Positions 42,998 to 50,288 of a stretch of 64,000 bases of DNA are shown in pieces. This DNA comes from Gammaproteobacteria bacterium. Lineage in GTDB: Bacteria; Pseudomonadota; Gammaproteobacteria; Pseudomonadales; Azotimanducaceae. Made by a program: the position numbers and the translations under genes. Position 1 is the first letter of the stretch; every line of letters begins with the position of its first letter. The notes beneath the pieces were generated by a model. The model saw only the letters and a list, made by a program, of their open reading frames with translations, searched no databases and was not told the DNA's origin. Location of the stretch: the NCBI GenBank assembly GCA_012269545.1, contig JAAXKB010000028.1, forward strand, positions 101,481 to 165,480. The letters run 5' to 3'.

Positions 42998-43182
42998 GCG
43001 ACTTTCTTCTTGTTAGTAGCTGCGTTACGAAGCAGTACAGCAGACGCTGGGTTAGAACTTCAGGAGAACCGATTGAGAAGCAGTTGAGGTTAATGAAGAC
43101 AATCGTGAGGGCCAGTTCTAAGAGTGCATAAAGATTGGCTAAACGAGATAGACTAGGTATCGAGATAACCAAGGATTTGGAT

Positions 43183-43884
43183 GTGGCGAAACATATTGTC
43201 ATCGTCGAAGACGACCCGGATCAGCGTTCGAACTATGCTGATGCGATTACCAACAAGGGCTATCAGGTCAGCGCGTACGGAAGCCGAGAAGAGGCCCTCG
43301 CCGGGTTTGACGTTGCCCTACCGGATCTTGCGATTTTGGACATCATTCTTGGCGACGAGGTGGATGCTGGTTTTCAGCTCTGCCGAGAACTGCTCGCCCG
43401 GTCACCGAGCCTACCCGTGATTTTTCTAACGGAACGGATTAACGAAATCGACAAGATCTCGGGGCTTCGCCTCGGTGCATGGGACTATCTGCCCAAACCG
43501 ATCTCTTTAGAGTACTTGGCTGAACGCATTTCATCCCTCTTGCGCATTAACGAAGCACGCAGTGCATTGTCGAAATCAGAGAGCGCGTCGGAAAAAAATA
43601 TCGGCGACCTTGCCTTGGATCAGGATGCCCTGCTGGTGAGTTGGAAAGGTCAGCGAATTGACCTGTCCGGCACCGAGTTTCGCATGCTGGCAAAGCTGGT
43701 GCGAGCTCCCGGTCATGCGGTGAGTTACGAAACGCTGATGAACGCAACCATGCAATCGTTGGTGACGAACAACACGATTAATACGCACATGCGGAATATC
43801 CGCAAGAAATTTGAGGCCGCTGACCAAGCGTTTGCCTGTATCAAAAGTGAGTACGGGTTCGGTTACCGCTGGACTAAGCAGTAA
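43183..43884 (+). CDS. pdsR: OmpR-type response regulator resembling PdsR
   Basis: A 233-residue regulator from GTG 43183 (AAGGA upstream); TTG codons at 43135 and 43177 are alternatives. Receiver domain: HIVIVEDDPDQRSNYADAI, phospho-acceptor in LPDLAILDIILGDE, and LGAWDYLPKPISLEYLAERI with the conserved Lys. C-terminal winged helix ends NTHMRNIRKKFEAADQAF and SEYGFGYRW. The partner kinase follows after 12 bases. The pair resembles the proteobacterial dedicated sortase system regulators; symbol is tentative. Confidence 0.75.
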   Translation: MAKHIVIVEDDPDQRSNYADAITNKGYQVSAYGSREEALAGFDVALPDLAILDIILGDEVDAGFQLCRELLARSPSLPVIFLTERINEIDKISGLRLGAWDYLPKPISLEYLAERISSLLRINEARSALSKSESASEKNIGDLALDQDALLVSWKGQRIDLSGTEFRMLAKLVRAPGHAVSYETLMNATMQSLVTNNTINTHMRNIRKKFEAADQAFACIKSEYGFGYRWTKQ

Positions 43885-43896
43885 GGCAAGCTGCCA

Positions 43897-46113
43897 ATGA
43901 TGTGGGGGCTAAATATCCGCGGACCGAAGCTGGGCACCAAACTCGCTCTGATGGGGCTGGCCCTGCTCGTGGTGCCCTGGTTCAGTTACCTGCAGCTGGT
44001 GGAAATGGAACGACTGCTTATTCAAGGGCAGTCCCAAGCCCAGCTGCTCACCGCAGAAGGTATCTCCACGCTTTTCAATGGCCGGGAGGATTTGTTTAAT
44101 GACTTGCCCGTCACGCTGGAAGACTTCGAACCGCTTTATGCTCAGCCGCTGGAGAATACTATTCGACTTGATGGCAGTGCGGAGGATTGGGGAAAGGCTC
44201 GAGACGGCAACTATTTGTCTTTCGGTTCACCAGCTGGAACGCAGGACGCAGATTTTGATCTGCTGTTAGGTGAGCGCGCTGACTATTTGTATGCCCATAT
44301 GCGCATCAGAGACGATCGCCTGGTGTATCGAGACACCGAATATCTGCGCTTGGACAATGCAGATCACATTCGGCTGAACTTTATTGGTGCGGGCGGTCAG
44401 GATGCTCGCATGTCCTTGGTTTTCGACGAGTCCGATGTGGTGACTGGTTTTGCTATGGATAACGAATGGCGTTACGCAGCCACGGGGAACGCGGATAACC
44501 GCGTGCAGGGCGTCCTGCGTCGCTTAGCCGGTGCGAATGAAATTGTTTTAGAGTTCCGTATCCCCTTGAGTCTGCTGGGATCGCGACAGTATTTTGGCCT
44601 AACCTTTGTGGATGTCGACGATGTGCTACAGCGTGATGTCGTGCGCAGCACGCAAACATTGCCCACCAAGGCCAATCAAAATTTCAATTTAGTGGTGCTG
44701 CGAACACCAGAGGTGCGCAACATTGTCCAGGGCCTGGGTTATTCCGGTGCAAAAATTCTGGTCATAGACAGTCTGCAGCGGGTTAGGGCAGAAGTCGGTG
44801 CCACCCGGCAACAAACCAAGGAAGACGATACGACCATCCGCGCCGGGACAGTCACACGACAGCTGACTCGCGCGGGTGATTTTGTTCGCAGCGTGTTCTT
44901 GGGTGCTGGCGGCGAACGAGAGCCTAGTTTGGATGACAGTGCTGCGCTGCAGGAGAGCCCTGCTGACCGAGCCATTCGCATTAGCTTGCAGGGAGACCCA
45001 ATAGCCCTGCGTAACCGCGTATCCAGTAACGAGGAAATTATCCTAGCCGCCCACCCCATTGTGTCTGCGGATCAAGTGATTGGTACGGTGATCGTTGAAC
45101 AAAACATCGACGATATTCTGCGTTTCCAACGCACCGCGTTAGAGCAAGTTTTGCTGCTATCACTGCTGAGTCTGTTAGCAATTTTTCTAGCTCTAATCAT
45201 ATTTGCGGGTCGATTGGCTTGGCGCATTCGCAACTTGCGTCGAGATGCTTCAGCAGCGATTGATGTGCGGGGACGTCTGCGCCGAGGCGGGCTGTTGAAC
45301 GAGATCAATGCCGGGGATGAAATCGGCGACTTAGCGCGCAGCGTGTCCAACATGTTAGAAAAGCTAAAGCAGCACAATGGGTTTCTTGAAAATATGCCGC
45401 GAACTCTGCGTCATGAGATCAATAACCCCCTCAACACCCTAAGCACATCCTTGCAGAACCTTGCCGATGAGCACCCCGATATCGATTCCAGCAAGTACTT
45501 GGAGAGTGCCAAACGCGGGGTTAACCGCATTGGGTCCATTGTGCAAAATCTGGCCGATGCAGCTAATCTGGAGGAAGCCCTGGAAGCTGAAGAACTCGAA
45601 GAAATCGATCTGAACGAATTGTTAGCCAGTTATGTCGCCAATTGCGGCGGGGCCCACGCCATGGCTGAGTTTGAGTATCACGGCAGTCCTGCTCCAGCAC
45701 AGGCATTGGTATCCGATTTTCGTATAGAGCAAATGCTCGACAAGTTGATCGATAATGCCGTGGATTTTCACCGGGCGGGCACGCCTATTCGAGTTCAGCT
45801 GGAATGTTTTGGTGATCTGGCACAAATCGTAGTGGCTAACCGGGGGGCGGCACTGTCCGAGGCTAGCCTAAACACCATTTTCGATTCCATGGTGAGTCAT
45901 CGAGGTCCCGACAACAGGCTCCATTTCGGCCTAGGACTGCACGTTGTTCGCATCATTGCCGAGCACCATGGAGGTACGGTAACCGCCGTTAATTTGGAGG
46001 ATCGAAGCGGGGTCGCGTTTGTGATTAGGCTGCCGCTGGTCGTGCCCTTTAGCCGCCCCTCGACCATGAGCAGCAGAAGCGACGGTGACCGAGTTCTTCG
46101 AGCGGAACGGTGA
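43897..46113 (+). CDS. pdsS: Sensor histidine kinase resembling PdsS
   Basis: A 738-residue membrane kinase. First membrane segment about residues 15-37; a large periplasmic part with a CBM9/DOMON-like start (IRLDGSAEDWG, ADYLYAHMRIRDDRLVYRD, LEFRIPLSLLGSRQYFGLTF); second membrane segment near 420-445; HAMP; phospho-His in LRHEINNPLNTLSTSL at about residue 506; ATPase boxes RIEQMLDKLIDNAVDF and GLGLHVVRIIAEHHGG. The architecture and length match the marine dedicated-sortase histidine kinase family, yet no sortase or LPXTG-type protein is found nearby. Confidence 0.75.
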   Translation: MMWGLNIRGPKLGTKLALMGLALLVVPWFSYLQLVEMERLLIQGQSQAQLLTAEGISTLFNGREDLFNDLPVTLEDFEPLYAQPLENTIRLDGSAEDWGKARDGNYLSFGSPAGTQDADFDLLLGERADYLYAHMRIRDDRLVYRDTEYLRLDNADHIRLNFIGAGGQDARMSLVFDESDVVTGFAMDNEWRYAATGNADNRVQGVLRRLAGANEIVLEFRIPLSLLGSRQYFGLTFVDVDDVLQRDVVRSTQTLPTKANQNFNLVVLRTPEVRNIVQGLGYSGAKILVIDSLQRVRAEVGATRQQTKEDDTTIRAGTVTRQLTRAGDFVRSVFLGAGGEREPSLDDSAALQESPADRAIRISLQGDPIALRNRVSSNEEIILAAHPIVSADQVIGTVIVEQNIDDILRFQRTALEQVLLLSLLSLLAIFLALIIFAGRLAWRIRNLRRDASAAIDVRGRLRRGGLLNEINAGDEIGDLARSVSNMLEKLKQHNGFLENMPRTLRHEINNPLNTLSTSLQNLADEHPDIDSSKYLESAKRGVNRIGSIVQNLADAANLEEALEAEELEEIDLNELLASYVANCGGAHAMAEFEYHGSPAPAQALVSDFRIEQMLDKLIDNAVDFHRAGTPIRVQLECFGDLAQIVVANRGAALSEASLNTIFDSMVSHRGPDNRLHFGLGLHVVRIIAEHHGGTVTAVNLEDRSGVAFVIRLPLVVPFSRPSTMSSRSDGDRVLRAER

Positions 46114-46124
46114 ATTCGCTTTGG

Positions 46125-47027
46125 TTAGGCCCGTTTGTAGGAACTCTCCAAGGTCAGACCTTCACCCTGCACAACAACCTGTCTCTTGCGCACGAGATTT
46201 TCCATCGCTGCTAGAACGCTGCGGGCCGCTGCTGGGTACATGAACTCTGGCGTGTCGCGATACATCAAAGGCACCATGTCACGAATTTGATAGGTCCCTT
46301 GGTCGATACACGACAAAATTTGTTGCTCGCGCTCGAGGCGGTGATCGATGTAAGCCCGCACATGCGTTTTGGGATCGATGATTGATGGACCGTGGGTTGG
46401 CCAGTAAATTTCATCGTCTCGCTCCAAGAGCAGTTCTAGGCTTTGCATATAGTCCGCCATATCGCCGTCTGGAGGCGAAATGATGCTGGTGGACCAGCCC
46501 ATGACATGGTCGCCGGTAAACAGAGCTTTTTGTTCTTGCAGAGCAAAGCAAAGATGGTTGGATGTATGGCCCGGCGTGTAGACACACTCTACAGTCCAGT
46601 CTGCGCCTCGGATAATGTCGCCGTGTGTTACAAGATGGTCTGGCACGAAGTCCATGTCGCCGCCCTCTTCCACTTGCACACCCTGTTCAATTTTGCCGGC
46701 GCCGTGAGGGCCATAGGCGTAAGTCGGTGCGCCGGTTCTGGCCTGCAGCGGGCGGCATCCCGGAGAATGGTCCATGTGGGTATGGGTGACCAAAATATGA
46801 CTGACTTCCTCGCCGGGCAGCCCGGCCAAAATCGCGTCAATATGCGTCTCATCATTGGGGCCGGGGTCGATTACCGCAACCTTACCTGTCCCTAATATGT
46901 ATGTACCCGTGCCGTGAAAGGTGAAGGGTCCTGGGTTATTTGCGATGACCCTTCGAATGCCCGGTGCCAACTGCATCACCGTGCCGTAATCGAACTCGAG
47001 CTCTCGGCGATAAGGAATTTGGACCAT
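46125..47027 (-). CDS. LACTB2-like MBL-fold hydrolase with winged-helix tail
   Basis: A 300-residue metallo-beta-lactamase-fold protein: YILGTGKVAVIDPGPND, metal motif THTHMDHSPGC, VYTPGHTSNHLCF, LFTGDHVMGWSTSII and YWPTHGPSI, then a C-terminal winged-helix-like region (IRDMVPLMYRDTPEFMYPAA). The layout matches LACTB2/beta-lactamase-like hydrolases, some of which cut RNA and others thioesters. Convergent to the histidine kinase gene with 11 bases between. Confidence 0.85.
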   Translation of the reverse strand: MVQIPYRRELEFDYGTVMQLAPGIRRVIANNPGPFTFHGTGTYILGTGKVAVIDPGPNDETHIDAILAGLPGEEVSHILVTHTHMDHSPGCRPLQARTGAPTYAYGPHGAGKIEQGVQVEEGGDMDFVPDHLVTHGDIIRGADWTVECVYTPGHTSNHLCFALQEQKALFTGDHVMGWSTSIISPPDGDMADYMQSLELLLERDDEIYWPTHGPSIIDPKTHVRAYIDHRLEREQQILSCIDQGTYQIRDMVPLMYRDTPEFMYPAAARSVLAAMENLVRKRQVVVQGEGLTLESSYKRA

Positions 47028-47122: not shown

Positions 47123-49399
47123 TTAAGAATCTGCCTGCCATTGAGTCATCCAGCGCAGCCATTGTTCGGATGCCGGACGCAGGGCAAGGGCTTGGGATAG
47201 ATAGTCGATGGCCTGTGCGTTCATCCCTGCTTCTCTGGCTTGCTGAGCGACTAAGGCCAGACGCGCTGCACACTGCGCCAACTGCACCAGTGCCTGTTCG
47301 TTTGCTGGGTCGAGCTCCAATACCTCTTGCAGTTTCTTAACCGCATTGTTGTCCGCAGGAAGCGTGATGTATCCCTGCTCGAACAGGACGTTGGCCTGTT
47401 CAAGGCCAATCGAGACTTGGCTCCGGCGGGTGATTTCTGTGTCGATGCGTTCCCGCATGTTGGCTATCGGCGTCGGGTTGAGCCCTTGAGCCTCCGCAAG
47501 AGCCACCATTTGCTGGGCTGCGGATAACGCACCTTCATCCAGCAGGCTTTGGGTTTTCTGCATAATCTCAGCAGTAATCGCACTCAGTCCGGTAGACGCC
47601 GGGGAATTGTCTGGATCGGTAGCCAATACCTGCAAATACAGCTCGGCAGCGTTTTCGCCCCTTGGCAGCATCAGTTGGCCTTGATCGCGCAAAGATTGAG
47701 CCTTGGCAAGCAACTCCGCAATTGCGCTCTGAATTGTCGTAGCCTCAGAGATCAAGCGTCGCACCTGATCCAACTCACGCAGGTCGCTGCGTGCTGCGGT
47801 GGCTCGCTGCAACAAGCGAATCGCTTTGGCGACTTCGCCTCCTTGGGCGGCCTGAGCGGCTAATTCGCCGTAGTGCCTGCTGATTTCCGTCAGGCCTTGA
47901 GCCGCCGCCGCATGATCTGGAGAGATCCGCAAAATTTCCTCAAACGCCTGCACGGCTGCAGCGGCACTGGCTTCGTCAGATAGGCCGCTGCTGCGTAACA
48001 GCGACTGTGTGCTGACCAACAGACGCTCTGCACGAAATCGGTTCTGCAGTCGCAGCGAAAGCACGGTTAGCTCAGGGTCCGACTCAAAAACGCTCTGAGC
48101 CTCTTCCAATCGAGTCGTGGCAAGCTCCAAATCGTTTTCCGCTGTTGCCTGTGCGATCGACTGCTTCCAGCTAACCGCTGTGTCGCGCAGCGCCTGCTGA
48201 GCGGGTTCATAGCCCGGGGCTACCTCGATCACTCTGCGGTAAGCTGCAACTATGGTCGTGAGACCTTGATTTGGATCCGAGGCCAATGATTGGGCTTCAC
48301 GCCAGGCAGCGGTCAGCTCTGGATTCTCGATGATGCCCAATGAGGCGGCTGCGTTTTCCACAACAGGCAAAAGCTCTGCGCGAAACGTAAAGAGCCCAGT
48401 GAGTATCGAACCGGTAAACAGGAGGGCTAGCGAGCTTTGCAACGCGATTCGACGCTGGCGCTTACGCCTCAGCCGTTTGTTCTGCAGCGCCAGTTCGTCC
48501 GGGCGCAAACGCAAATCGGCGAATAAGGCTGACAGTTCTAGCGTGTCGATTGCTGCGCTGCGAACGACCTGTGCTAATAGCTCCTTCTCCGTCTCTGCCT
48601 TATTGAGCACCGTTTTTAACTCAGTGGTATTGCCGATTCTTTGTTGCGGACTTTTTGCCATCAGGCCGTTTATAACCGGCTGTAAATTTTGCAGATGGCT
48701 AGGTAATTTCGGCACGCTGTCCTGCAGATGAGATTGCAGGACGGTTTCTCGAGACTCGTCTTCAAATGGCAGCCGACCGCTCAAGAGCTGAAATGCGATC
48801 ACACCGAGGGCGTAGTAGTCGGCAGCTCCAGAGGAACGTCTTTCATCATCTGGTAATGACAATGAGGCAGCTTGAATTCTTTCTGGGCTCAAATACGCAG
48901 CGGAGCCTGTTTGACCGCCAGAAGAGAGTAAATCCATATCGTCTAGCCGATAGGCAGAACCCAGATCAATCAAGACTGGTTGAGAATTGGGTGTAATCAA
49001 AACATGTTCGGGGCGCAGGTCTCCATGCGCAAATCCCTGCCGGTGCAGCGCATCCAATGCACCTGCAATCTGCAAGAGAAACTGCATCAAACTGCTGATC
49101 GTGATGCCGTCCTTCACGCGCTCCATCAGATTTTGCTGGCCGTAATAGGTCAGCAGCACATAGTCGTGCCCTTCGAAAATACCGCTTTTGAGCAACTGGC
49201 AAATACCCGGGTGATCAACAGCTTGAAGAGCATCTCGTTCGGTACTTCGCCGAGGAATAAATTTCAACACGGCCGCATCAGAACCATCCGAGCGTCTTAC
49301 CAATAGGGTGCTCGGCGGAGATTTATTGCCCATCGCTCTGATGACGCGAAAGCCGTCTATCATGCCGTCAGCCGGCGTTGGGCTGCCAGCATTATCCAT
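47123..49399 (-). CDS. Membrane Ser/Thr-kinase-like protein with TPR-like repeat tail
   Basis: A 758-residue protein from ATG 49399, which overlaps the end of the MORN gene by 8 bases. Residues about 12-290 form a eukaryotic-type kinase domain with the beta-3 Lys in AAVLKFIPRR, a catalytic loop HGDLRPEHVL, LIDLGSAYRL in place of DFG, and LSPERIQAA. The usual loop Asn is His, and the Gly-rich loop is degenerate, so activity may be weak or lost. A membrane segment lies near 318-340, followed by a long helical tail of TPR-like repeats; two copies share the pattern QG-x-LP...NA...L-x-DP-x-N. By topology the tail is periplasmic. Confidence 0.82.
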   Translation of the reverse strand: MDNAGSPTPADGMIDGFRVIRAMGNKSPPSTLLVRRSDGSDAAVLKFIPRRSTERDALQAVDHPGICQLLKSGIFEGHDYVLLTYYGQQNLMERVKDGITISSLMQFLLQIAGALDALHRQGFAHGDLRPEHVLITPNSQPVLIDLGSAYRLDDMDLLSSGGQTGSAAYLSPERIQAASLSLPDDERRSSGAADYYALGVIAFQLLSGRLPFEDESRETVLQSHLQDSVPKLPSHLQNLQPVINGLMAKSPQQRIGNTTELKTVLNKAETEKELLAQVVRSAAIDTLELSALFADLRLRPDELALQNKRLRRKRQRRIALQSSLALLFTGSILTGLFTFRAELLPVVENAAASLGIIENPELTAAWREAQSLASDPNQGLTTIVAAYRRVIEVAPGYEPAQQALRDTAVSWKQSIAQATAENDLELATTRLEEAQSVFESDPELTVLSLRLQNRFRAERLLVSTQSLLRSSGLSDEASAAAAVQAFEEILRISPDHAAAAQGLTEISRHYGELAAQAAQGGEVAKAIRLLQRATAARSDLRELDQVRRLISEATTIQSAIAELLAKAQSLRDQGQLMLPRGENAAELYLQVLATDPDNSPASTGLSAITAEIMQKTQSLLDEGALSAAQQMVALAEAQGLNPTPIANMRERIDTEITRRSQVSIGLEQANVLFEQGYITLPADNNAVKKLQEVLELDPANEQALVQLAQCAARLALVAQQAREAGMNAQAIDYLSQALALRPASEQWLRWMTQWQADS

Positions 49400-50288
49400 T
49401 GGTTGCAGAGCCTGTGATTGCTGGTCCGGCTGCCGGTGCTGTTTTTCGCCCGGGGCTTGCAGGAGGTCCAGGTAACGCCACGCGCGCTCCTTTGACTCGC
49501 TGGCCAAGTATCCAGCGACCTGCTGTCACCAAATGCTCGCCCGTCAGTGTGATCGCAAATCCGTCGCCGTGGGCCAGCCCGTTGATGCAAGCATCGGCTT
49601 TGACCATCCAGGCTCCGTCGGCATCATCGGCGCGGCATCGGGGATCAGAGGCAACGGTTTGAGCTTCCTGCAAAACACCGTCTTGCCATTGCTGCAGCGA
49701 CATCGAGCCATTGCTCCGGCGCTCAACACCTATGCCGTCACGCCTACCCTGCAAGAAATAACCGGAGAATGCAGTAGCGTCCGAGTCGATTAACATACCC
49801 AGACCTGAGCGGCGATCCTGCACAAAGGTGCCCTGATAGCGTGTCCCATCAGGCCACTGATAAAGACCCTGACCGTTCATCATTCCGGCCTCGAATAGCC
49901 CCTCGTAGCGTTCACCGCTTTGCCACTGCATCGTGCCTTGCCCAGCGCGTTTATTGGCAACAAAGCTGCCCTCATATCGGTCCCCGTTGACCCAAACGAA
50001 GACACCTCTGCCCTGCATTTGGCCATTGACGAAATTTCCCCGATAACGGTCGCCATTGGCCCAAGTCAGTGCCCCAAACCCTTCGCGTTTGCCTGCTGTA
50101 AAGTTCCCCTCATAGCTCTTGCCATCGGCCCAAATGTAACGCCCGAAACCCTCTAAGGAGCCGTCGATGACCTCGCCTTCGTAGCGATCACCGTTGGCCA
50201 GCGTCAGCTCCTGAGGTTCCGCCAAGGCATAGGATGCGGTGCCCAGTAACCATAGCGCCCAAAAGGCGACTGTGTGTCGATTCTGCAT
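49392..50288 (-). CDS. Exported MORN-repeat protein
   Basis: A 298-residue protein with a signal peptide (VAFWALWLLGTASYALAE). From about residue 36 to 190 there are six to seven MORN repeats with the YEGxFxxGxxxGxGxxxWxxGxxY pattern, for example YEGNFTAGKREGFGALTWAN and YRGNFVNGQMQGRGVFVWVN. The C-terminal part has Cys at two places (DPRCRADDADG, DACINGL) and a Pro/Ala/Gly-rich end. It should lie in the periplasm or outer leaflet. The kinase-like gene starts inside its 3' end, a sign of tight coupling. Confidence 0.85.
   Translation of the reverse strand: MQNRHTVAFWALWLLGTASYALAEPQELTLANGDRYEGEVIDGSLEGFGRYIWADGKSYEGNFTAGKREGFGALTWANGDRYRGNFVNGQMQGRGVFVWVNGDRYEGSFVANKRAGQGTMQWQSGERYEGLFEAGMMNGQGLYQWPDGTRYQGTFVQDRRSGLGMLIDSDATAFSGYFLQGRRDGIGVERRSNGSMSLQQWQDGVLQEAQTVASDPRCRADDADGAWMVKADACINGLAHGDGFAITLTGEHLVTAGRWILGQRVKGARVALPGPPASPGRKTAPAAGPAITGSATNG

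Follow-up and report, generated by a model that had tools for sequence, protein, structure and literature searches.

The 64,000-nucleotide stretch of DNA analysed here (the window; positions 101,481 to 165,480 of contig JAAXKB010000028.1, from a gammaproteobacterium of the family Azotimanducaceae) carries on its minus strand a pair of overlapping genes for an exported MORN-repeat protein and a membrane kinase-like protein. We propose that this pair belongs to a vertically inherited envelope module that once signalled through an FHA-domain protein and now persists as an assembly of MORN protein and TPR tail whose cytoplasmic domain is non-canonical, a reading that we regard as about an even call. 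Comparison of sequences across the family establishes the gene pairing, the association of an FHA gene with catalytic residues, the shift in constraint between the two halves of the kinase-like protein, and the invariance of a remodelled active site in the window's own clade. A first-pass annotation had described the pair as an envelope unit in which a periplasmic MORN protein talks to a cytoplasmic pseudokinase-like domain; its observations are confirmed, and its interpretation is partly supported. The features on which the argument rests are the following.

47123..49399, minus strand: membrane kinase-like protein, 758 residues from ATG 49399, with TTG 49507 a possible start (open reading frame (ORF); Pfam; alignment).
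48602..49354, minus strand: kinase domain of the Hanks type, spanning about residues 16-266 and predicted to face the cytoplasm (Pfam, residues 53-258; alignment).
49004..49027, minus strand: catalytic loop HGDLRPEH, Arg to Gly and Asn to His (sequence; alignment).
48959..48967, minus strand: DLG metal motif (alignment; within the window's 11-row clade the Asp is invariant and the Gly variable).
48533..48544, minus strand: T-x-E-[ILV] motif beside the membrane segment (TLEL, T286-L289), a candidate site for docking of the FHA protein in relatives that have one (alignment).
48392..48448, minus strand: single membrane segment, predicted N-in (19-residue hydropathy 1.58; Lys/Arg 8 versus 1).
47123..48325, minus strand: TPR-like tail, periplasmic by predicted compartment (weak Pfam TPR; fold matches; tail profile).
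49392..50288, minus strand: exported MORN-repeat protein, 298 residues (ORF; Pfam MORN, E 6.5e-41; MORN1 fold match, E 6.7e-14; adjoins the kinase gene on its 5' side at 101 of 103 loci).
50220..50288, minus strand: predicted Sec signal peptide (MQNRHTVAFWALWLLGTASYALA followed by E; sequence).
49587..49637, minus strand: Cys pair C218/C234 in the C-terminal CINGLAHG module (both Cys invariant in 9 of 9).

A kinase profile searched against 206 genomes of the family matched 167 at 1e-30, many of them with fragments or the kinase domain only; the analysis below covers 103 loci with full or nearly full genes, L082 having been dropped as a presumed duplicate of L003. In 101 of these the gene immediately 5' of the kinase gene, and read in the same direction, is the MORN gene, and the contigs of the two exceptions (L174 and L175) end on the upstream side, so that the pairing holds in 101 of 101 loci where the contig continues. 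Overlaps or gaps of a few bases between the two genes are common, as judged from longest-ORF starts. In the window itself the kinase gene does start inside the MORN gene, as first annotated, but with ATG 49399 as the start the overlap with the MORN stop is only 8 bp (ATGGATAA); TTG 49507, which would lengthen it to 116 bp, does no more than open the longest ORF. At 20 loci outside the family that match the kinase profile (one of them only a 175-residue ORF, and three, L211, L214 and L216, cut upstream by a contig end), no MORN match was found. When a profile of the tail alone was run over 390 genomes of the order and 369 of the class, near-full-tail cover appeared, among the matches listed, only in family members, and the best out-of-family match among them reached 133 bits over part of the tail.

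The MORN protein and the tail of the kinase-like protein are predicted to share the periplasm. Lys and Arg residues flanking the window's membrane segment number eight on the N-side and one on the C-side; across the family the N-side is the richer in 100 loci, equal in 1 and poorer in 2, and by this bias the tail is predicted to lie outside, in the periplasm, in 100 of the 103. Pfam TPR matches in the tail are weak and mostly under cut-off. The best matches of the modelled tail among PDB folds are TPR proteins (E 1.1e-5), in a model that is poor as a whole (mean predicted local distance difference test score (pLDDT) 52.6) and has block means of 70-84 over residues 361-520. The MORN product matches Pfam MORN (PF02493) in six stretches arranged as tandem repeats (136.2 bits), and the model of this region resembles T. 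brucei MORN1 structures in its predicted fold; the single-chain models, made from two sequences, are weak, the one of the MORN protein having a mean pLDDT of 56 and being good only over about residues 21-130. Judged by a crude cut-off, 83 of the 101 MORN proteins have a hydrophobic stretch ahead of the first MORN motif, and a two-Cys pattern near the C-terminus recurs in 100 of the 101, so that C218 and C234 are likely to form a periplasmic disulfide. The annotated order of membrane segment, periplasmic repeat tail and MORN protein in the same compartment thus agrees with the charge bias, the TPR-like folds, the signal-peptide-like start and the conserved Cys pair.

A further pointer to a MORN-tail relationship comes from covariation. 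Across 88 loci (L146, L170, L171, L172, L176 and loci lacking the metallo-beta-lactamase-fold (MBL) gene or the MORN gene were dropped), MORN and tail distances covary with a partial r of 0.55 given the MBL protein and the kinase domain, a value reached in none of 500 permutations, and MORN and kinase-domain distances covary less (0.18); because pairwise distances are not independent, these values serve as a pointer only. It could be supposed that the MORN and kinase genes adjoin through frozen synteny and do not work together, since the whole neighbourhood is conserved: among the 103 loci, homologues of the MBL gene are found in at least 94, of pyruvate kinase in at least 83, of a histidine kinase in at least 79 and of TauE in at least 69, all of them lower bounds as the stretches mostly reach only 3 kb to either side. 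We consider this highly unlikely in view of the unbroken adjacency of MORN and kinase genes, their frequent overlaps or short gaps, the excess covariation of MORN protein and tail, and the shared predicted compartment. The stable neighbourhood does make the locus look vertically inherited, and the annotated pairing stands as a conserved unit.

Within this conserved unit the kinase half has lost or rebuilt its active site repeatedly, and the half that faces the envelope has stayed intact. Seven catalytic residues were scored (Lys, C-helix Glu, HRD Arg, Asp, Asn, DFG Asp and Gly), and 21 of the 103 kinases keep them all; the four residues Lys, Asp, Asn and Asp are kept in 53 loci and at least one of them is lost in 50, and in L166 and L172 none of the seven is left. 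A gene for an FHA-domain protein, in some cases truncated at a contig end, lies 3' of the kinase in 29 loci, all of which retain the four residues, and in none of the 50 loci that lost any of them. Among the 21 canonical kinases, 18 have the FHA gene, L104 has a remnant, and L036 and L084 are without it. In these counts L106 is scored as FHA-bearing despite a split gene; L104 is scored as FHA-less in the Thr-motif counts, the 98-row tree and the branch-length calculation below, and is left out of the FHA counts on the tail tree. The FHA protein of genome G105, the only one scanned against Pfam, has three FHA domains (E 2.2e-42), and the two FHA protein sequences inspected carry a hydrophobic segment at the end. 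A profile made from two FHA proteins matches 34 of the 206 family genomes at 1e-20 and finds no match at that threshold in the window's genome. Separately, the FHA gene of L106 (G338), beside a canonical kinase, is split over two frames, through either decay or assembly error.

Relatives have canonical kinases with an FHA gene behind them, and the window's protein was probably not a pseudokinase at the outset. Kinase loci outside the family read HRD in 18 of 21 cases (the other three were not read out) and FHA-bearing loci are spread over the tree, which together make the intact state the likely ancestor. On a tree of tail, MORN and MBL proteins (98 rows, the long branches L166, L170, L171, L172 and L176 having been dropped), FHA presence changes at least five times and the four-residue state at least eight times; rooted on an FHA-bearing row, the same tree holds 10 maximal residue-loss clades and 5 FHA-less clades. 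As no FHA-bearing row shows residue loss, every such loss falls within an FHA-less clade. Of the total tree length, 65% lies on FHA-less branches, and eight losses would all fall on them with a probability of 0.65^8 = 0.03 if FHA is never regained and losses are proportional to branch length. In one genus (support 99), L104 (G373) has an intact kinase and an FHA remnant, and its sister L156 has a damaged kinase and no FHA gene, which suggests that the FHA reader was lost there before the kinase residues; L104 is an apparent intermediate stage of FHA loss.

The two halves of the kinase-like protein are also constrained differently according to the state of the active site. We compared kinase domain and tail in 28 chosen pairs, with ratios of nonsynonymous to synonymous substitution (dN/dS) taken from Nei-Gojobori counts, several of them at saturated dS. 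Among 14 measurable pairs with degenerate kinases, 13 show a kinase domain that evolves faster than the tail, as between the window and L003 (0.21 in the kinase domain versus 0.08 in the tail) or L174 and L175 (0.27 versus 0.07); among four pairs with intact kinases, three show one that evolves more slowly (L090-L095, 0.02 versus 0.12). In terms of identity, the tail is more conserved than the kinase domain in all 16 degenerate pairs and less conserved in 4 of 5 intact ones, and pairs in between, with the four residues kept and other changes present, are mixed. Among all pairs at 40-50% tail identity, mean kinase-domain identity is 0.62 for intact kinases (108 pairs) and 0.28 for degenerate ones (346 pairs). 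Every measured dN/dS is below 1, and degenerate kinase domains therefore remain under selection.

These data raise the question of whether the kinase domain has become a passive scaffold in all FHA-less lineages, the window's included, such that only the MORN-TPR complex matters and the residual site is inherited inertia. The better conserved tail of all 16 degenerate pairs would fit this idea, as would three degenerate clades other than the window's, in which only 1-2 of five active-site columns are invariant, as expected by chance (p 0.59-0.96). We think it unlikely, because the window's clade keeps all five columns and a fourth degenerate clade, g3a, keeps four of five with Arg for Lys (p 0.03).

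The window's kinase-like ORF has a Hanks fold by Pfam (Pkinase, PF00069, E 1.1e-24, 87.7 bits against a cut-off of 31.7). By alignment it retains Lys46, Glu54, Asp127 and Asp145, and it departs from a canonical active site in the glycine-rich loop, which is degraded with one of three Gly left, in HRD, which reads HGD and so lacks the Arg, and in the catalytic-loop Asn, which is His (H132). The His for Asn and the DLG noted in the first-pass annotation are thus both present, and by loss of a canonical residue the protein qualifies as pseudokinase-like; the DLG is not by itself a lesion, as active kinases with DLG exist. What that label leaves out is that the family includes canonical kinases with an FHA protein and that the altered site appears to be conserved. 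The sequence HGD[LI][KR]PEH is common to all 11 rows (11 species) of the window's clade, which is defined on the tail tree with an SH-aLRT (Shimodaira-Hasegawa-like approximate likelihood ratio test) support of only 82. Within it 33 of 240 comparable kinase columns are invariant (14%), and the columns of K46, E54, D127, H132 and D145 are so in five of five cases (p 3.7e-5, treating columns as independent). The site therefore looks remodelled and maintained, not decayed, which is where we depart most from the first-pass annotation, and it probably still binds nucleotide or metal.

One explanation for this invariance is that the window's kinase is still catalytically active in an unusual way, with His132 replacing Asn as a metal ligand and no need for an FHA effector. 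Besides the five invariant residues, kinase-domain dN/dS values of 0.13-0.21 in four pairs within the clade speak for it as signs of purifying selection. The glycine-rich loop, however, is degraded and variable, the DFG Gly is free to vary, the FHA reader has been lost, and the kinase domain evolves faster than the tail, so that we regard continued catalysis as doubtful; that the domain acts as an ordinary protein kinase is unlikely, and kinase activity has presumably been lost. Only tentatively do we suggest a neofunctionalised site, arising in the window's clade after FHA loss, in which HGD[LI][KR]PEH with its fixed His, the Lys-Glu pair and both Asp would form a nucleotide- or metal-gated switch, or catalyse some other transfer, where a periplasmic MORN-TPR sensor ends in the cytoplasm. 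His also occupies the Asn position beyond this clade: in L099 (G468), which is otherwise canonical (HRDVKPEH) and has no FHA gene, and in the strongly degenerate kinases L141 and L166. Another Ser/Thr kinase of the window's genome, at L002 (G000:C2), has the canonical loop HRDVKPEN.

The juxtamembrane T-x-E-[ILV] motif offers a possible point of contact for the FHA protein. Its Glu is present in 103 of 103 loci, and its Thr in 28 of 29 FHA-bearing loci, in 20 of the 24 FHA-less loci that keep Lys, Asp, Asn and Asp, and in 22 of the 50 FHA-less loci that do not. FHA domains are known to bind, among other targets, phosphothreonine followed by Ile at +3 (PMC4037201). We advance FHA binding at this motif as a hypothesis drawn from the alignment.

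Taken as a module once coupled to FHA, the locus would have worked as follows. In the ancestral state a periplasmic MORN protein would bind the TPR tail of a transmembrane Ser/Thr kinase, and the state of the MORN protein would set kinase activity, for example by clustering. The phosphorylated kinase, or its juxtamembrane Thr, would then recruit the FHA effector. Several lineages may then have dropped the effector; their kinase domains, under weaker catalytic constraint, would have decayed or been remodelled, and the MORN-TPR assembly would have been retained. In the window's lineage, from which the FHA gene is gone, a remodelled site (Lys-Glu pair, HGD, His for Asn, DFG Asp) would have become fixed, and the kinase domain could now give the MORN-TPR complex a cytoplasmic end for docking or for gating by a ligand.

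Several observations weigh against this proposal. The canonical kinases L036 and L084 have no adjoining FHA gene, and 24 FHA-less loci in all keep Lys, Asp, Asn and Asp; conversely, 11 FHA-bearing loci have lost the C-helix Glu, HRD Arg or DFG Gly, so that FHA presence is no guarantee of a canonical kinase. Sign tests on independent pairs for FHA against catalytic residues are not significant, with too few pairs (a mean of 1.3-2.7 concordant and 0 discordant), and in the window's own 18-row clade FHA absence and residue loss fall on the same branch, where their order is not separable. Among the dN/dS comparisons, the intact pair L036-L084 has a kinase-domain value of 0.58 at a dS of 0.03, and in the degenerate pair L145-L147 the kinase domain is slightly slower than the tail. 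The T-x-E-[ILV] Glu is retained where the kinase has decayed, so that the motif has a function that does not depend on phosphorylation. The neighbours of the pair, too, are for the most part conserved. Finally, the structure models are weak, that of the kinase domain having a single-chain pLDDT under 50.

The remaining features concern the surroundings of the pair.

46125-47027, minus strand: gene of the metallo-beta-lactamase fold, 3' of the kinase gene (present in at least 94 of 103 loci).
43135-43884 and 43897-46113, plus strand: two-component pair (TIGR03787 and TIGR03785, under cut-off).

In G105 and G260 the FHA gene sits between the kinase and the MBL gene. The two-component pair is related to that of the proteobacterial dedicated sortase system (TIGR03787, 247.9 bits against 335.7; TIGR03785, 437.9 against 612.2; both under cut-off), and a homologue of its histidine kinase gene is convergent with the MORN and kinase genes in 79 of 103 loci. 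A sortase link was considered and set aside: the window's genome has no sortase (PF04203) match, and two of eight genomes have one each. A scan of the window gave 4 promoter-like sites (1.9 expected) and 3 terminator-like ones (3.9 expected), and no tRNA was found in it. Five kinase-profile matches contain one internal stop (G391:C87, L109; G405:C33, L110; G404:C139, L120; G293:C29, L159; and G396:C113); at the four loci fetched (L109, L110, L120 and L159) the ORF still spans 728-820 residues and the stop is probably near an end. Two other assignments of the kinase-like protein were rejected. It is not a PASTA kinase of the PknB/StkP type, as Pfam gives no PASTA match at 0.1 and NCBIfam PknB_PASTA_kin scores 97.2 bits against a cut-off of 450, on the kinase domain only. 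A defence-system reading was set aside: what PADLOC matches in the kinase-like protein (PD-T4-6, mad6 and others) is chiefly its kinase domain, and it matches neither the MORN nor the FHA protein.

The locus presents, at one syntenic position in about 100 species, stages from a canonical kinase with an FHA protein to a domain with none of seven residues kept, with the MORN gene retained at every inspectable locus across those stages. It thus amounts to a natural experiment on how a signalling enzyme changes its role: one can ask, with real proteins, why a kinase domain is retained once catalysis is gone and whether the phospho-reader is the first to be lost. The kinase-like protein also becomes a concrete candidate partner for exported bacterial MORN proteins, for which we found no periplasmic function in the open-access literature; nor did we find there any report of a bacterial MORN-kinase pair or of such an envelope signalling unit.

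Among known proteins, other gammaproteobacterial Ser/Thr kinases with a transmembrane segment and TPR tail share the kinase domain and a similar, weaker tail match, and differ in the absence of a MORN match at the 20 out-of-family loci, three of them cut upstream. MORN repeats are described, in PMC7725318, as protein-protein interaction modules that mediate dimerisation. The window's protein shares these repeats and a matching fold with TbMORN1, MORN4 and junctophilin, but it is bacterial and exported, carries a conserved two-Cys module at its C-terminus and has a membrane kinase-like protein as its neighbour. The bacterial pseudokinase families ActPs1-3, GLW, CP1, DYD and DLHK, as set out in a review (PMC12599244), likewise combine a Hanks fold with lost motifs, and EssB/YukC appears there as a transmembrane pseudokinase scaffold; in the same review DYD is placed in actinobacteria and firmicutes, and CP1 and DLHK are defined without membrane segments. 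Membership in DLHK or CP1 was rejected on this ground, since the window's protein and its relatives have a predicted membrane segment. The words MORN, TPR and periplasm are absent from the review's text, which does describe a related route to an FHA protein, the pseudokinase domain of M. tuberculosis MviN being phosphorylated by PknB and then recruiting FhaA.

In its working the arrangement parallels the PpkA pathway of type VI secretion, in which PpkA becomes active through periplasmic TagR or RtkS and phosphorylates Fha (PMC10482370). The locus is not part of that threonine phosphorylation pathway itself: no sheath gene (PF05943) was found in any of eight genomes (of 14 control genomes, E. 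coli matched), and a kinase with an FHA partner occurs at 29 of 103 loci, the window's not among them. A membrane Ser/Thr kinase, a periplasmic protein and an FHA protein are nevertheless three roles of the PpkA-TagR(RtkS)-Fha system that are visible in the FHA-bearing relatives, and the differences are that here the candidate periplasmic partner is a MORN protein, the tail is TPR-like, and the adjoining FHA gene is absent in 74 of 103 loci.

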